62,527 nt of DNA from Chloroflexota bacterium (GCA_020850535.1 JADZEM010000028.1:1-62527), one strand, 5' to 3'; shown: positions 27,865 to 37,555, counted from the first letter of the stretch. The notes: generated from the letters alone by a model not told the origin. Numbers and translations are program-made.

Positions 27865-28067
27865 CCCCTGCACCCGCCATTCTGTCAAAACGGCGATTCT
27901 GTCAGAGGGGGGATCCCGCCCGTGCCCTCGGGCCGCCCGACTCCCCGCCTCCAGCATCCGCTACGATCTCCCTCCGTCAGCCCGCGCGTCGGCCAGCCCC
28001 GCTGCCGACCACGACAACGGGCAGGGCAGCCGCCACCTGATTGCTGGCTGCCCTGGAGGGAGCACGG

Positions 28068-28856
28068 ATGGATCTGAGTCTGGCCGGCCGCGTGGCTGTC
28101 GTCACCGGGGGCGGCTCGGGAATCGGTGAGGCGGCCTGCCTCACCCTGGCCGAGGCCGGGGCAGCGGTCGCCGTCGTGGACGTGCGGCCGGAGCCTGCCC
28201 GCGCCGTGGCCGAAAAGATCACCGCGAGCGGCGGGAAGGCCATCGCGCTGACCGCCGACGTGCGCGACGAAGAGGCCGTCAGCGCGGCCATCACCCAGGC
28301 GGCCAGCACGCTCGGCGGCCTCAACATCGTGTTCGCGAACGCCGGCATCAACGGCATGCAGACGCCCATCGACGAGATGACGCTGGACGAGTGGAACGCC
28401 ACCATCGGCACCAACCTGACGGGCGTCTTCCTGACCGTCAAGCACAGCGTCCCCCACCTGCGAGACGCCGGCGGCGGCTCGATCATCATCACGGCGTCCG
28501 TCAACGGCAACACGCTCTTCTCGCTCCCGGGCTACGCAGCCTACTCGACCTCGAAGGCCGGGGCGGTCGCCTTCACCAAGATGGCGGCCCTGGAGCTGGC
28601 CCGCTGGGAGATCCGCGTCAACGCGATCCTGCCGGGGGCCATCCAGACGAACATCGGGGAGCGGACCTACCGTCGCAACCTGCATCGGGTGGACTACGGC
28701 TTCACGCCGCCGGAGAAGTGGCCGCCCCTGCGCGGCGAGTCTGCCGACGCCCGCGAGGTGGCCGATCTGGTGCACTTTCTGGCCTCGGACGCCAGCCGCT
28801 ACATGACCGGCGCGCAGATGCTGATCGACGCGGCCTACACGCTCTGGCGGGGCTAA
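28068..28856 (+). CDS. SDR-family oxidoreductase, tandem copy 1
   Basis: The 262-residue protein has VVTGGGSGIGEAACL, FANAGINGMQ, ITASVNGN (catalytic Ser region) and YSTSKAGAV (Tyr and Lys). Near the end TGAQMLIDAAYTLWRG closes the domain. It is a classical NAD(P)-dependent dehydrogenase of unknown substrate. A very similar gene follows after eleven bases. The ATG follows GGAGGGAGC. The two genes almost certainly form one operon arising by duplication. Confidence 0.93.
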   Translation: MDLSLAGRVAVVTGGGSGIGEAACLTLAEAGAAVAVVDVRPEPARAVAEKITASGGKAIALTADVRDEEAVSAAITQAASTLGGLNIVFANAGINGMQTPIDEMTLDEWNATIGTNLTGVFLTVKHSVPHLRDAGGGSIIITASVNGNTLFSLPGYAAYSTSKAGAVAFTKMAALELARWEIRVNAILPGAIQTNIGERTYRRNLHRVDYGFTPPEKWPPLRGESADAREVADLVHFLASDASRYMTGAQMLIDAAYTLWRG

Positions 28857-28867
28857 AGGACAGCGCT

Positions 28868-29662
28868 ATGGCTATGGATCTCGATCTCACCGGCCGGGTG
28901 GCCGTCGTCACCGGTGGCGGCTCGGGCATCGGCGCGGCCGCCTGCCTCAAGCTCGCGGAGGCCGGTGCGGCCGTCGCCATCCTCGATCTGCGCCCGGAGC
29001 CGGCCCAGGCCGTGGCGGCGCAGATCGCGGCGGCCGGCGGCAAGGCCCTGGCGCTCGCCGCCGACGTGCGCGACGAAGAGGCCGTCAGCGCGGCCATCAC
29101 CCAGGCGGCCAGCACACTCGGCGGCCTCAACATCGTGTTCGCCAACGCCGGCATCAACGGGATGCAGACGCCCATCGACGAGATGACGCTGGACGAGTGG
29201 AACGCCACCATCGGGCCGAACCTGACCGGCGCCTTCCTGACCGTCAAGCACAGTATCCCGCACCTGCGCGACGCCGGCGGCGGCTCCATCGTCGTGACGG
29301 CGTCCGTCAATGGGAATACGGTCTTTTCGCAGCCGGGTTACGCCGCCTACTCGACCTCGAAGGCTGGGGCGGTCGCCTTCACCAAGATGGCAGCGCTGGA
29401 GCTGGCCCGCTGGGAGATCCGCGTCAACGCGATCCTGCCGGGGGCGGTCCAGACGAACATTGCGGAGCGGACCTACCGCCGCAACCTGCATCGTGTGGAC
29501 TACGGGTTTCACCGGCCCGAGAAGTGGCCGCCATTGCGGGGCGCGCCGGCCGCCGCCAGCGAGATCGCCGACCTGGTCCTCTTCCTGGCCTCGGACGCCA
29601 GCCGCTACATGACCGGCGCCCAGCTCCTCTGCGACGGCGCATCGTCGCTCTGGCGCGGCTGA
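28868..29662 (+). CDS. SDR-family oxidoreductase, tandem copy 2
   Basis: The 264-residue protein repeats nearly the whole of the preceding SDR: VVTGGGSGIGAAACLK, FANAGINGMQ, YSTSKAGAVAF and VQTNIAERTYRRNL. The middle third (from DVRDEEAVSAAIT through DEWNATIG) is almost identical at the DNA level, while N- and C-terminal thirds are more diverged, which points to recent duplication or gene conversion. AAAGGA from the upstream stop region serves as ribosome binding site. Both copies keep the Ser/Tyr/Lys residues, so both could be active. Confidence 0.93.
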   Translation: MAMDLDLTGRVAVVTGGGSGIGAAACLKLAEAGAAVAILDLRPEPAQAVAAQIAAAGGKALALAADVRDEEAVSAAITQAASTLGGLNIVFANAGINGMQTPIDEMTLDEWNATIGPNLTGAFLTVKHSIPHLRDAGGGSIVVTASVNGNTVFSQPGYAAYSTSKAGAVAFTKMAALELARWEIRVNAILPGAVQTNIAERTYRRNLHRVDYGFHRPEKWPPLRGAPAAASEIADLVLFLASDASRYMTGAQLLCDGASSLWRG

Positions 29663-33295: not shown

Positions 33296-36200
33296 TCAGC
33301 GCCCGAACTGGGCGCGGCGCTCCTCGGCGGACTCACGGGCGGCCGCTGCCAGCTCCGGCTGGCCAAGCTCGTCGTACAGGTTCGCCAGCTCCAGCAGCGC
33401 CCACGGCGCGCGCGGGGCCGTCTCGGCCAGCCGTCGCAGCTCGTGGACGGCGGCCTCTGTGCCCCCGCGCGTGCGGCGTATCGCCTGAACCATCTGCTGG
33501 ACCGGCTCCGGGTCGTCCGGACGCAGCTCGGCCAGCGCCACGAGCGCCACGCTGGCCCGGTCCCACTGATCGCGGCCGCGGGCCTCCTGAGACCAGCTCC
33601 GGAGCGCGCTCGCGCCCGTCGTGCCGGCCTCGCGCCAGGCCAGGGCCGCCTCGCGCCACAGCCCAAGATCCTTGCTGACGCGGCCAAGCTGATACAGCGA
33701 GTACCAGTCGCCGCCGGAGGTGCGGATGCGGGCCTCTCCCAGGTACTCCCGGCCGCGCCCGATATCGCCCCGCCCCAGGGAGACCTCTGCCAGATTTCGC
33801 CAGATGGCGGCGTCGCGGTCGTCGGCCGCCAGCGCCCGGCGCAGGAACAGGTCGGCGCGGGCGAGGATCGGCTCACGGTCCTCGCGGCGCAGGTTGTCCG
33901 TGAGGGTGGCGCGCGCCCGTTCGACAGCGCCCAGGTTCAGCAGCAGGATGCTGGAGAGCGGCGTCAGCGTGAACGTCACCAGGGCGACGAGCGCAAGCCC
34001 GGCCGCCAGCGGCGTCGAGAAGACGGGGCGGACCCAGGCCAGCACCCCCCGCTCAGGCAGCTGCTCCAGGGCCGGCCGCATCCGGCCCGGCGGCGTCTGG
34101 CGGCGGTCCACCCGGCTGGCCGCGACCAGCAGCCCCAGCGCGACCATCAGCAGCACGTTGCCGACGCTCGTCAGCAGCACGACTTCCGTCAGCCCTTCGA
34201 ACAACTGCACCAGGGCCGCGCCGCCCGCCGAGAGCGCCACACTCCAGGCCAGCGGCGTCCGGGCGTTGGCGACGGCCCGCCGCGCGATGAACAACAGGGC
34301 CATCGTCAGGCTCACCAGCCCGAGCGCTCCGAGGAGGCCCTGTTCGAGGTACGCCTGGATGTAGGCGTTGTGGGCGTGGCTGAAGTTCGGGCCGATGGTC
34401 AGCATGGACGCTTCGTACACGTCGCGGACGGCCCGCTGCCCCAGCCCGACGCCCGTAAAGGCGAAGTCGTGGAGGATCGCGGCGGCGTTCTGCCAGAAGC
34501 GAATCTTCACGGAAAGCGGCAGGGCGTCCGGCGCGCCCAGGCCACCGAGCTGCCGCTCGACCAGCAGCCACAGCCCGACCAGCACGAACGGCGTCGCCAG
34601 CAGCGGCCAGCCGTAGCGCAGCCCGAGCAGCACGACGATCAGGGCCAGCACGCTCACCAGCGAGCTGCGGCTGCCGCTGACGATCACGACGCCCAGAAAC
34701 AGCAGCACCAGCGCGAAGCAGGCGAGGCGGGTCTTGCGGCGGGCGGCGGCGAGCGCCGGGCCGATGGCCAGCGCCAGCCCGAAGGTCGCCAGCGCGCCCA
34801 CGCCCGAGGCGCGGAACCGGAACCGCTGGAGCGCCTCTGACGCGCCAAGCACCAGTTGACGCAGCCCATCCGTCGCGGCGATCAGCCCATCCAGCGGGCC
34901 GCCCGGCGCGCCCCAGGGCAGATAGGGCGCGGTCACGAACAGCATCAGCACGCTGCCCGCCGCCGCCACACCCAGCGTCAGCGCCAGCGCACCGCGCAGC
35001 CGCCGCTGGGTGGTCGCATGGTGCACGATCAGCCAGTACAGCGCGATGCTCGCCACCAGGCCGTTCAGGCGAATGCTGCCCTGGAGCGGGCTGGAGGTGA
35101 TGAGCATTCCGAGCACGCCGCCGGCCGCGAACAGCCCGATGGGGACGCTGAACGGCGTCGGCGCCAGGAGCTGACCGGTTCGCACCAGCCTGAGCAGCCA
35201 GGGCCCGACCACCAGCAGGGCCGGCCAGGACGTGCCGGCCGGGCTCATCAGCAGGAGCACCACGACCGGCAGGATGTACCACGGCTCCAGCGCCAGCGCG
35301 CGGTCTGCCGCATCTGCCAGCCCGTGGCGGGCACGCTCGACCATGACCTGGATCGGGGCGCGGGCGTCTGGCAGCGCCACCGTGCCCGGCGTCAGCGTCA
35401 TCGTCGCGGCGGTGGGGCCAGCCCGCGGGACGGCGTTCCACCCCAGCGACGCGCCTGTGCCGAGTGCGTGTGCCCCGGCGGCCGGCGCCGGCAGCGTGGG
35501 CAACTGCGGTGGCGCCGCGCCGTCCCGCGCGATCTGCCAGAGCACCCGGCGGACCTCGGTGCGGTCGCCGTTGGCGCCGGCAGCCGCCAGATCGTCCACG
35601 GCCTGGGCCAGCTCGCCCTGGGAGAGCGTCCGCCGGATCCCGAGCACCCGCATCACCTGGGGGTGCGGCGTCGGCTGGGTGTACTCCTCGGCGCTGTGGA
35701 GCACCTCGCGGAGCTTCTCGCCGGGGCGGGGGCCGGTGATGACGATGGGGATGTCGATGTCCGGGCGCAGGCCACGCAGGCGGATCAGCCGACGGGCCAG
35801 GTCGAGGATGTTGATCTCCTCGCCCATGTCCAGCAGGAAGACGTCGTTGCCGGTGGTGAAGTTGGCCGCCTGGACGATCAGGCTGGCCGCCTCCGAGATC
35901 GTCATGAAGTAGCGGGACATGGTCGGATCGGTGATGGTGACCGGGCCGCCAAGGTCGATCTGCTTGGTGAACGTCGGGACCACGCTGCCCCGGCTCCCGA
36001 GGACGTTTCCGAAGCGGACGGCGGTGTAGAGCGTATTCGGCGCGCGCATCGAGGTGCCGATCAGCTCGCAGACCCGCTTGCTGGCCCCCATCACGCTGCT
36101 CGGCTCGACGGCCTTGTCGCTGGAGACCAGCACGAATCGCTCGGCCCCGAACTCGCCGGCCAGCCGCATCATCAGGCGCGTCCCGCCGACGTTCACGCGG

Positions 36201-37555
36201 ACCGCTTCCTCAGGGTACTCCTCCATCAGCGGGACGTGCTTGTAAGCAGCGGTGTGGAAGACGAGGTGCGGGCGCTCGCCGGCGAAGAGGGCGCGCAGCC
36301 GGCGCTCGTGGGTGACGTCTCCGACGACGGGCACCAGCGTGGTGTCGTCGGAGCGGAAGCCCTGCAGCTCGACGGAGAGATCGTGGATGCCGCTCTCGTT
36401 GGCGTCGAGCATCACGAGCCGGGCCGGGCGGAGATCGGCAAGCTGACGGCACAGCTCGCTGCCGATGGAGCCGCTGGCCCCTGTCACCAGGACGGTCTTC
36501 CCGCGCACGAGGTGGCGGCACTGGTCGCGGTCGATCTGGACCGAGTGCCGCCCGAGCAGGTCTTCGAAAGTCAGATCGCCGAACAGCGAGTCGCCAAGCG
36601 GCGCGCCCGTGTTGGCGCGGACGGGCGCGCCTTCGATGGGCGCGAGGGTGCTCGGCAGGGCCTTGATCTGGGCCGAGGTCTCCTGGCAGATCGCCACGAT
36701 GTCGCGCAGCGCGCTGCCGGTGATGGTGTGGATCGCCAGCACGATTAGATCGACGTTCTCGCGCTCGACGACGGCGGGAATCTGCTCCTTGCCGCCGAAC
36801 ACCTTGCGACTGTGGATCAGCATTCCGTGCTTGCGGGCGTCGTCGTCCACGAAGCCGACGACGTGGTAGCGCTCGGCCAGCGCGCCGTTCTGCAACTGCC
36901 AGCCGAGGTGCTGCCCGGCCTCGCCGGCCCCGACGATCAGCACGCGCGTGACGTTCTGGTTTGGCGGGGCCATGATCCGCCGCCAGGTGCGGCGGATGCC
37001 GGCCATCGGCTTGGTGCGGTAGCGCACGGCGGTCATCGCGCAGATGGCGAAGAACGCGCCGAGGAACACGACTGAGAGGGGCATCGGGCGGAAGCCCGGC
37101 CACGCGAGATCCAGCGCCAGCACGGCGACCGTCGCCACGCCGACCGACACGCTGAGCGGCACGAGATCCTGCGAGGTTGCGAAGCGCCACCAGCGCCGGT
37201 AGATGCCGAACGCCTCGTTGCAGGCGACGACGATCAGGCTGGCCAGGGCGGCAAACTCGAGGGCCGGCTCGTACTCGAGGGTCGTCGTGACGCCCCGCAC
37301 GACCAGCGCGATGGCAAACGACAACCAGACCAGCGGGAGGTCGATCACCACCCACGGGAAGAAACGCCGGGCAATCGTCGCGAGTCGCGTCGTCAAAGGC
37401 CCTGGCACGCCGCTCCCTGAGAGACCGTATGAAAACCGCTCGCGGACGGCGTCAGAAGAGGATGGTGCGAGTCCAGGCCGGCCGCCGGGTCCAGCGAGCC
37501 TGGCATGGGGATCCGGTGGAACGTCCGTGTACTCGTCGCTGCGAGCGTGGGCCAT
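33296..37555 (-). CDS. Fusion of membrane nucleotide-sugar dehydratase and O-antigen ligase/TPR protein
   Basis: The 1419-residue protein joins two pathway parts. Residues 65-180 are four membrane segments, 200-340 a Rossmann-like domain (VLIVGAGEAGQHLGW) and 350-650 an SDR domain of the WbpM/FlaA1/PglF type with VLVTGASGSIGSE, VSSDKAVEPSSVMGASKR and TDPTMSRYFMT, normally a UDP-sugar 4,6-dehydratase or epimerase. After a Pro/Ala linker (660-750), residues 755-1200 are a polytopic O-antigen-ligase domain with NFSHAHNAYIQAYLEQ, then TPR helices to the end. An alternative GTG start at residue 50 has AGGGAG upstream and the ATG has no clear binding site. Confidence 0.9.
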   Translation of the reverse strand: MAHARSDEYTDVPPDPHARLAGPGGRPGLAPSSSDAVRERFSYGLSGSGVPGPLTTRLATIARRFFPWVVIDLPLVWLSFAIALVVRGVTTTLEYEPALEFAALASLIVVACNEAFGIYRRWWRFATSQDLVPLSVSVGVATVAVLALDLAWPGFRPMPLSVVFLGAFFAICAMTAVRYRTKPMAGIRRTWRRIMAPPNQNVTRVLIVGAGEAGQHLGWQLQNGALAERYHVVGFVDDDARKHGMLIHSRKVFGGKEQIPAVVERENVDLIVLAIHTITGSALRDIVAICQETSAQIKALPSTLAPIEGAPVRANTGAPLGDSLFGDLTFEDLLGRHSVQIDRDQCRHLVRGKTVLVTGASGSIGSELCRQLADLRPARLVMLDANESGIHDLSVELQGFRSDDTTLVPVVGDVTHERRLRALFAGERPHLVFHTAAYKHVPLMEEYPEEAVRVNVGGTRLMMRLAGEFGAERFVLVSSDKAVEPSSVMGASKRVCELIGTSMRAPNTLYTAVRFGNVLGSRGSVVPTFTKQIDLGGPVTITDPTMSRYFMTISEAASLIVQAANFTTGNDVFLLDMGEEINILDLARRLIRLRGLRPDIDIPIVITGPRPGEKLREVLHSAEEYTQPTPHPQVMRVLGIRRTLSQGELAQAVDDLAAAGANGDRTEVRRVLWQIARDGAAPPQLPTLPAPAAGAHALGTGASLGWNAVPRAGPTAATMTLTPGTVALPDARAPIQVMVERARHGLADAADRALALEPWYILPVVVLLLMSPAGTSWPALLVVGPWLLRLVRTGQLLAPTPFSVPIGLFAAGGVLGMLITSSPLQGSIRLNGLVASIALYWLIVHHATTQRRLRGALALTLGVAAAGSVLMLFVTAPYLPWGAPGGPLDGLIAATDGLRQLVLGASEALQRFRFRASGVGALATFGLALAIGPALAAARRKTRLACFALVLLFLGVVIVSGSRSSLVSVLALIVVLLGLRYGWPLLATPFVLVGLWLLVERQLGGLGAPDALPLSVKIRFWQNAAAILHDFAFTGVGLGQRAVRDVYEASMLTIGPNFSHAHNAYIQAYLEQGLLGALGLVSLTMALLFIARRAVANARTPLAWSVALSAGGAALVQLFEGLTEVVLLTSVGNVLLMVALGLLVAASRVDRRQTPPGRMRPALEQLPERGVLAWVRPVFSTPLAAGLALVALVTFTLTPLSSILLLNLGAVERARATLTDNLRREDREPILARADLFLRRALAADDRDAAIWRNLAEVSLGRGDIGRGREYLGEARIRTSGGDWYSLYQLGRVSKDLGLWREAALAWREAGTTGASALRSWSQEARGRDQWDRASVALVALAELRPDDPEPVQQMVQAIRRTRGGTEAAVHELRRLAETAPRAPWALLELANLYDELGQPELAAAARESAEERRAQFGR

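Follow-up and report, generated by a model that had tools for sequence, protein, structure and literature searches.

A Chloroflexota gene joins a PglF/WbpM-type dehydratase to a Wzy_C-family membrane domain with tetratricopeptide repeats in one frame

Analysis of a 62,527-nucleotide stretch of DNA from a Chloroflexota bacterium (GCA_020850535.1, JADZEM010000028.1:1-62527; hereafter the window) revealed a gene at positions 33296..37555 on the minus strand, here called the fusion gene, which joins a PglF/WbpM-type sugar-nucleotide dehydratase to a Wzy_C/WaaL-superfamily membrane domain and a tetratricopeptide repeat (TPR) solenoid. The window is contig C28 of genome G000 (7.65 Mb, 227 contigs). 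We consider it fairly probable that the product is a bifunctional membrane protein which acts as a tether between an early step and a late one in what is probably a single pathway, and that it originated from the joining of operon genes. The dehydratase-Wzy-TPR chain is apparently a new combination of known families, and no description of it was found in the open-licence literature searched.

The fusion gene is a single frame conserved in three genera

The minus strand of the gene is a single intact frame of 1419 codons from the ATG at 37555, and several stops are present on the plus strand across the same interval. Frame and Pfam matches agree on the single 1419-residue chain with dehydratase, Wzy_C and terminal TPRs that the initial annotation had described. 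The G+C content at third codon positions (GC3) is 0.87-0.98 from codon 61 onwards, with 0.92 in the linker between the two halves; there is therefore no sign of a frame break, as had been noted earlier for the linker.

Full-length, single-frame orthologues, colinear with the window protein, were found in both other genomes of the family that were compared (G001, 1422 amino acids; G002, 1350 amino acids), each an independently assembled metagenome-assembled genome (MAG) of another genus. The three proteins are 58-61% identical, G001 and G002 having 60% and 59% identity to the window protein. Since the same architecture occurs in both, an assembly join is excluded, and the orthologues together with GC3 exclude a stop or frameshift at the junction. 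The gene was thus confirmed, at the level of sequence, as a real single frame, neither a sequencing error nor an assembly join. Among the orthologues, identity is highest in the short-chain dehydrogenase/reductase (SDR) domain (75-81%), followed by the PF13727 region (63-75%), the four N-terminal transmembrane (TM) helices (65-66%), the Wzy region (56-63%), the last TM helix with the TPRs (49-59%) and the loop at residues 1151-1185 (24-35%). The third codon position is the most divergent in nearly all segments compared; only at residues 641-690 does this fail, in two of the three pairs.

The first 50-60 codons or so are gappy, poorly conserved (codons 1-57) and predicted to be disordered, and GC3 of codons 1-60 is lower (0.67). 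For these reasons the true start may be the GTG at 37408 (residue 50; 37406..37408, minus strand), which has AGGGAG 4 nt upstream and would give about 1370 amino acids.

No further full-length case was found at the E-values used among 29 genomes of the class and a sample of about 400 Chloroflexota genomes. Two patterns taken from the Wzy-TPR half, run against 84,980 species genomes, matched four loci, each of which lies in one of two MAGs, MGR_bin229 and YX3bin7; two of these are the fusion and two are stand-alone Wzy-TPR genes, and no further lineage was found. None of the plasmid records covers 80% of the fusion protein. Outside Chloroflexota, where the C-terminal patterns and the plasmid records were scanned, a dehydratase may have become fused convergently to a different Wzy. 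Long frames in G093, G207, G276 and G379 were considered as fusions and rejected, as they are ordinary dehydratases of about 630-640 amino acids within spurious high-GC frames.

The dehydratase half and the linker

Motif and profile matches confirmed the N-terminal half as a predicted UDP-GlcNAc 4,6-dehydratase of the PglF/WbpM type. All features of the protein are given on the minus strand. Hydropathy places a four-TM membrane module at residues 58-200 (36956..37384), modelled with pLDDT mostly of 70-90. PF13727 (CoA_binding_3; E 8.2e-11) matches residues 114-300 (36656..37216) and overlaps the last two of these helices, and PF02719 (Polysacc_synt_2, the PglF/WbpM-type dehydratase domain; E 1.7e-99) matches residues 355-637 (35645..36493) over nearly the whole profile (1-291 of 293). 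The nearest solved relative is PglF (WlaL) of C. jejuni (5bjw, E 4.9e-66). The half carries TGASGSIG and an active-site motif, S479-D480-K481 ... M489-x3-K493 (36077..36121), in which Met replaces Tyr and which is conserved in the three orthologues. In the WbpM/PglF class, Met substitutes for the catalytic Tyr, Thr/Asp accept the C4-OH proton and Lys acts at C6 (PMC8987622); the first motif residue is Ser in the fusion protein (SDK), whereas it is Thr in the reviewed class (TDK) (PMC8987622). The same front part of four TM helices and PF13727 occurs in large phosphoglycosyltransferases (PGTs) (PMC10942596). A 958-residue frame of G002 (L031:4772-7648, contig C54) places a four-TM module of the fusion type, 50% identical to residues 53-199, before a family 2 glycosyltransferase (GT2) domain.

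The two halves are joined by a variable, Pro/Ala-rich linker at residues 684-733 (35357..35506), with pLDDT below 50 in both structure models; the AlphaFold model built from eight rows puts the disorder at residues 681-730. The orthologues are 42-52% identical at residues 641-690; residues 691-750 align with gaps, at 31-40% identity.

The Wzy-TPR half

The C-terminal half was confirmed, on sequence and profile evidence, as a putative Wzy_C/WaaL-superfamily membrane domain plus a TPR solenoid. Hydropathy, Pfam, the structure model and a profile match support a Wzy region of about 12 TM helices at residues 751-1150 (34106..35305), within which PF04932 (Wzy_C) matches residues 949-1080 (34316..34711) with 43.5 bits against a curated cut-off of 31.7. 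An Arg-rich loop (residues 1146-1185) is followed by a last TM helix, identified by hydropathy, at residues 1187-1205 (33941..33997) and by the C-terminal TPR solenoid, predicted to lie outside the membrane, at about residues 1222-1419 (33299..33892). Hydropathy of the three orthologues suggests about 13 TM helices for the whole half, a count that in any single sequence shifts with the hydropathy threshold. TPR_17 (PF13431) matches residues 1375-1403, and a profile search matched TPR chains at E 2e-25.

Alignment of eight homologues revealed the motif H1060-A-H1062-N1063-x9-G-LL-G1076 (34328..34378), whose HAHN is aligned with that of WaaL (7tpg). The His motif of WaaL is H[NSQ]x9Gxx[GTY], and H1062-N-x9-G1073-LL-G1076 fits it. 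H1060, H1062, N1063, E1071, G1073, G1076, R829 and R911 are invariant in all eight homologues, and a profile of the Wzy half retrieved WaaL 7tpg at E 1.1e-10. The AlphaFold model of the Wzy-TPR part, from the eight rows, combines a bundle of helices with a helical solenoid (pLDDT 79.6, pTM 0.74); in the model of residues 1-1200 the N-terminal half is good and the Wzy half, with three rows there, is poor. Foldseek comparison of the Wzy-TPR model with the PDB matched mostly TPR proteins; WaaL is the sole protein of O-antigen-ligase type among the 21 matches with E <= 0.001, and its match is weak (E 5.1e-4, TM-score by target length 0.43). Based on the hydropathy pattern and the Arg-rich loop, the SDR domain and the linker are predicted to be inside and the HAHN loop and the TPRs outside.

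LpxC and Omp85, the two LPS markers examined, gave no match in G000 or in its three nearest relatives among the genomes compared (G001-G003), all of them incomplete drafts, and controls were positive in the expected named genomes. A role of the C-terminal half as an O-antigen ligase of lipopolysaccharide (LPS) (WaaL sensu stricto) is hence unlikely, and that of a polymerase or non-LPS glycan transferase would fit better. The label "O-antigen ligase" in the initial annotation therefore holds for the superfamily match and not in its LPS sense.

Gene complement and the proposed pathway

None of the genomes G000, G001 and G002 has a membrane-type PF02719 protein besides the fusion protein; G000 and G002 each contain one additional form of 365-370 amino acids. 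Each genome has one small PGT frame of about 200-260 amino acids (G000:C3, G001:C1029, G002:C74), and G001 has a further PGT match that ends at a contig edge. All three small PGTs adjoin a DegT-type aminotransferase and a Wzy-TPR gene, and in G000 and G002 also a methyltransferase; these assignments are from Pfam for G000 and partly for G002, and from sequence likeness for the remainder. The methyltransferase-aminotransferase-PGT-Wzy/TPR operon of the family contains no dehydratase. A dehydratase, an aminotransferase and a PGT form the known trio PglF-E-C or EpsC-N-L (PMC10653937), and the fusion dehydratase together with the operon therefore completes this trio at two loci. The fusion protein would thereby supply the aminotransferase/PGT operon. 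Another fusion common to the three genomes, which unites a YfhO-like membrane protein and a Wzx/MOP-type flippase (PF09586 and PF01943) in a single frame, was found at L066:2181-6236 (G000:C159; 1351 codons), L067:3737-8041 (G002:C84; 1434 codons) and L068:379-3411 (G001:C370; at least 1010 codons).

In the proposed mechanism the N-terminal half, held by its four TM helices, would dehydrate cytosolic UDP-GlcNAc to a 4-keto-6-deoxy sugar, like PglF, WbpM and EpsC. The DegT aminotransferase and the small PglC-like PGT of the other locus would form the amino sugar and load it onto a lipid carrier, after which the lipid-linked glycan would be extended and flipped. The C-terminal half, with its active site at the outer face, would transfer this glycan to another glycan or a non-LPS acceptor, the external TPRs holding the acceptor or a partner, and the covalent link would keep the early and the late step within one membrane patch. 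That the single chain couples sugar supply with glycan consumption, in one envelope-glycan pathway of a bacterium without LPS, is a speculative extension which we rate as rather improbable.

Fusions indicate which enzymes act together. Dehydratases and their Wzy partners are otherwise hard to pair from sequence, and the host belongs to a poorly studied family of Chloroflexota; the prediction here is that this PglF-type dehydratase and this Wzy-family enzyme serve the same glycan. The fusion would represent a natural tether linking pathway steps at the inner and the outer face.

Origin of the fusion

Most likely, a dehydratase gene and a Wzy gene that lay side by side in one operon were joined to form the fusion. 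A genome of another family in the same class (G021) has the gene row methyltransferase-aminotransferase-PGT-dehydratase-Wzy-Wzy, in which the dehydratase and the following Wzy share a frame; with a TTG as the Wzy start, a single TGA and 9 nt lie between the two. This operon suggests loss of one stop codon as a possible route. A frame of "1288 aa" in G021 was rejected as a fusion, since it comprises two genes with the TGA between them. Identity between the G021 row and the operon of the fusion family is 39% for the methyltransferase, 49% for the aminotransferase and 53% for the PGT. The three fused proteins group as one clade in the tree of dehydratases (100/100), the closest of the remaining rows by path being that of G021. 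The tree of Wzy sequences makes the fused halves the sister group of the other Wzy-TPRs of the family (97/95) and leaves both Wzy proteins of G021 outside. The most economical scenario begins with an ancestral row that had dehydratase-Wzy at its end; duplication and stop loss would have produced the fused gene from it, and the remaining genes would have kept their place.

PglF-type dehydratases with an N-terminal PF02397 PGT domain were found in two genomes (L042:5786-8293 in G169; L043:6464-9169 in G309), and in G379 a Wzy gene directly abuts a dehydratase gene. Both observations support an origin by the joining of operon genes. In G006, a frame with a PAP2 phosphatase domain and a GT2 domain (L053:9424-11466) directly follows a PglF-type dehydratase.

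Weighing of the alternative explanations

Several points weigh against a tethering protein derived from one operon. The fusion gene is solitary in the window, outside any polysaccharide cluster, so that its link to the aminotransferase/PGT operon is one of gene complement. The dehydratase tree leaves the placement of G021 without support, and the Wzy of G021 shares only 28% identity with the fused Wzy. The Wzy alignment is shallow (eight rows), and the Arg of the SxR motif (R963 of the window protein) is Pro in the G002 orthologue. Cleavage or an internal start could still give two proteins.

The strongest alternative is a neutral fusion, in which the stop separating neighbouring dehydratase and Wzy-TPR genes was lost, each enzyme keeps its former activity and the link itself has no function. 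The one-stop separation in G021, the N-terminal PGT domain borne instead by related dehydratases of the phylum, the abutting genes of G379 and the disordered, scarcely conserved linker all agree with it. However, the fusion was kept in all three genera compared, down to 58% identity and away from the operon, and since a link of no use should occasionally have been broken, this retention counts against neutrality. It argues mildly for a functional tether rather than a relic, and we place the neutral explanation somewhat below even likelihood.

It is also conceivable, though unlikely, that the Wzy half is a Wzy_C-superfamily protein oligosaccharyltransferase for surface proteins, with the TPRs recognising the protein. 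Binding to proteins is common among TPR domains, neither LpxC nor Omp85 was found, and each family genome has 6-10 Wzy_C matches. On the other hand, no oligosaccharyltransferase-specific family model was matched in Pfam, and no acceptor candidate is known.

The initial annotation had suggested that a modified sugar lipid is channelled to polymerisation or transfer, that is, handed from the dehydratase directly to the Wzy/ligase half. Physical fusion alone favours this idea, which has very little probability. The dehydratase would use a soluble cytosolic UDP-sugar; the SDR domain is predicted inside and the HAHN loop of the Wzy_C site outside; and in the PglF-E-C and EpsC-N-L pathway, aminotransferase, PGT, extension and flipping intervene (PMC10653937). 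These intervening steps and opposite-facing sites make direct hand-over implausible, and co-localisation or a simple fusion of operon genes is the likelier explanation of the chain. Finally, an assembly or frame artefact that merged two genes can be practically dismissed, as two independently assembled MAGs have the same architecture and both frame and GC3 are continuous.

Neighbouring genes

Beyond the end of the fusion gene, a convergent major facilitator superfamily (MFS) transporter gene is present in G002 (L029:6387-7685) and G001 (L028:759-2096), and a histidine kinase with a receiver domain occupies the corresponding place in the window. A tandem of two very similar short-chain dehydrogenase genes was found at 28041-29662 of the window, consisting of the open reading frame (ORF) 28041-28856 and the second half of ORF 28391-29662.

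Comparison with known systems

WaaL (7tpg) and the Wzy polymerases (PF04932) have in common with the fusion protein the Wzy_C match, the aligned HAHN and many TM helices; in contrast to them, the fusion adds the N-terminal dehydratase, an extra last TM helix and external TPRs, and the LPS markers LpxC and Omp85 were not found in its host. The Wzy-TPRs of the family operons (L051, L052, L059) are sister to the fused half but stand alone beside the aminotransferase and PGT. The unfused pair of G021 (L030) has the order, strand and frame of the fusion; unlike the fusion, it has a TGA and 9 nt between the genes, and its Wzy has no TPR. In L042 and L043, as in the fusion, a dehydratase is fused to a partner from the same kind of pathway, the partner being a PGT on the N-terminal side. 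PglF of C. jejuni, WbpM of P. aeruginosa and EpsC of B. subtilis consist of the same four TM helices, PF13727 and PF02719 as the N-terminal half and share its Mx3K, and the genome with the fusion likewise encodes an aminotransferase and a small PGT. Whereas the chains of PglF, WbpM and EpsC end after the dehydratase, that of the fusion protein continues into the Wzy-TPR half.

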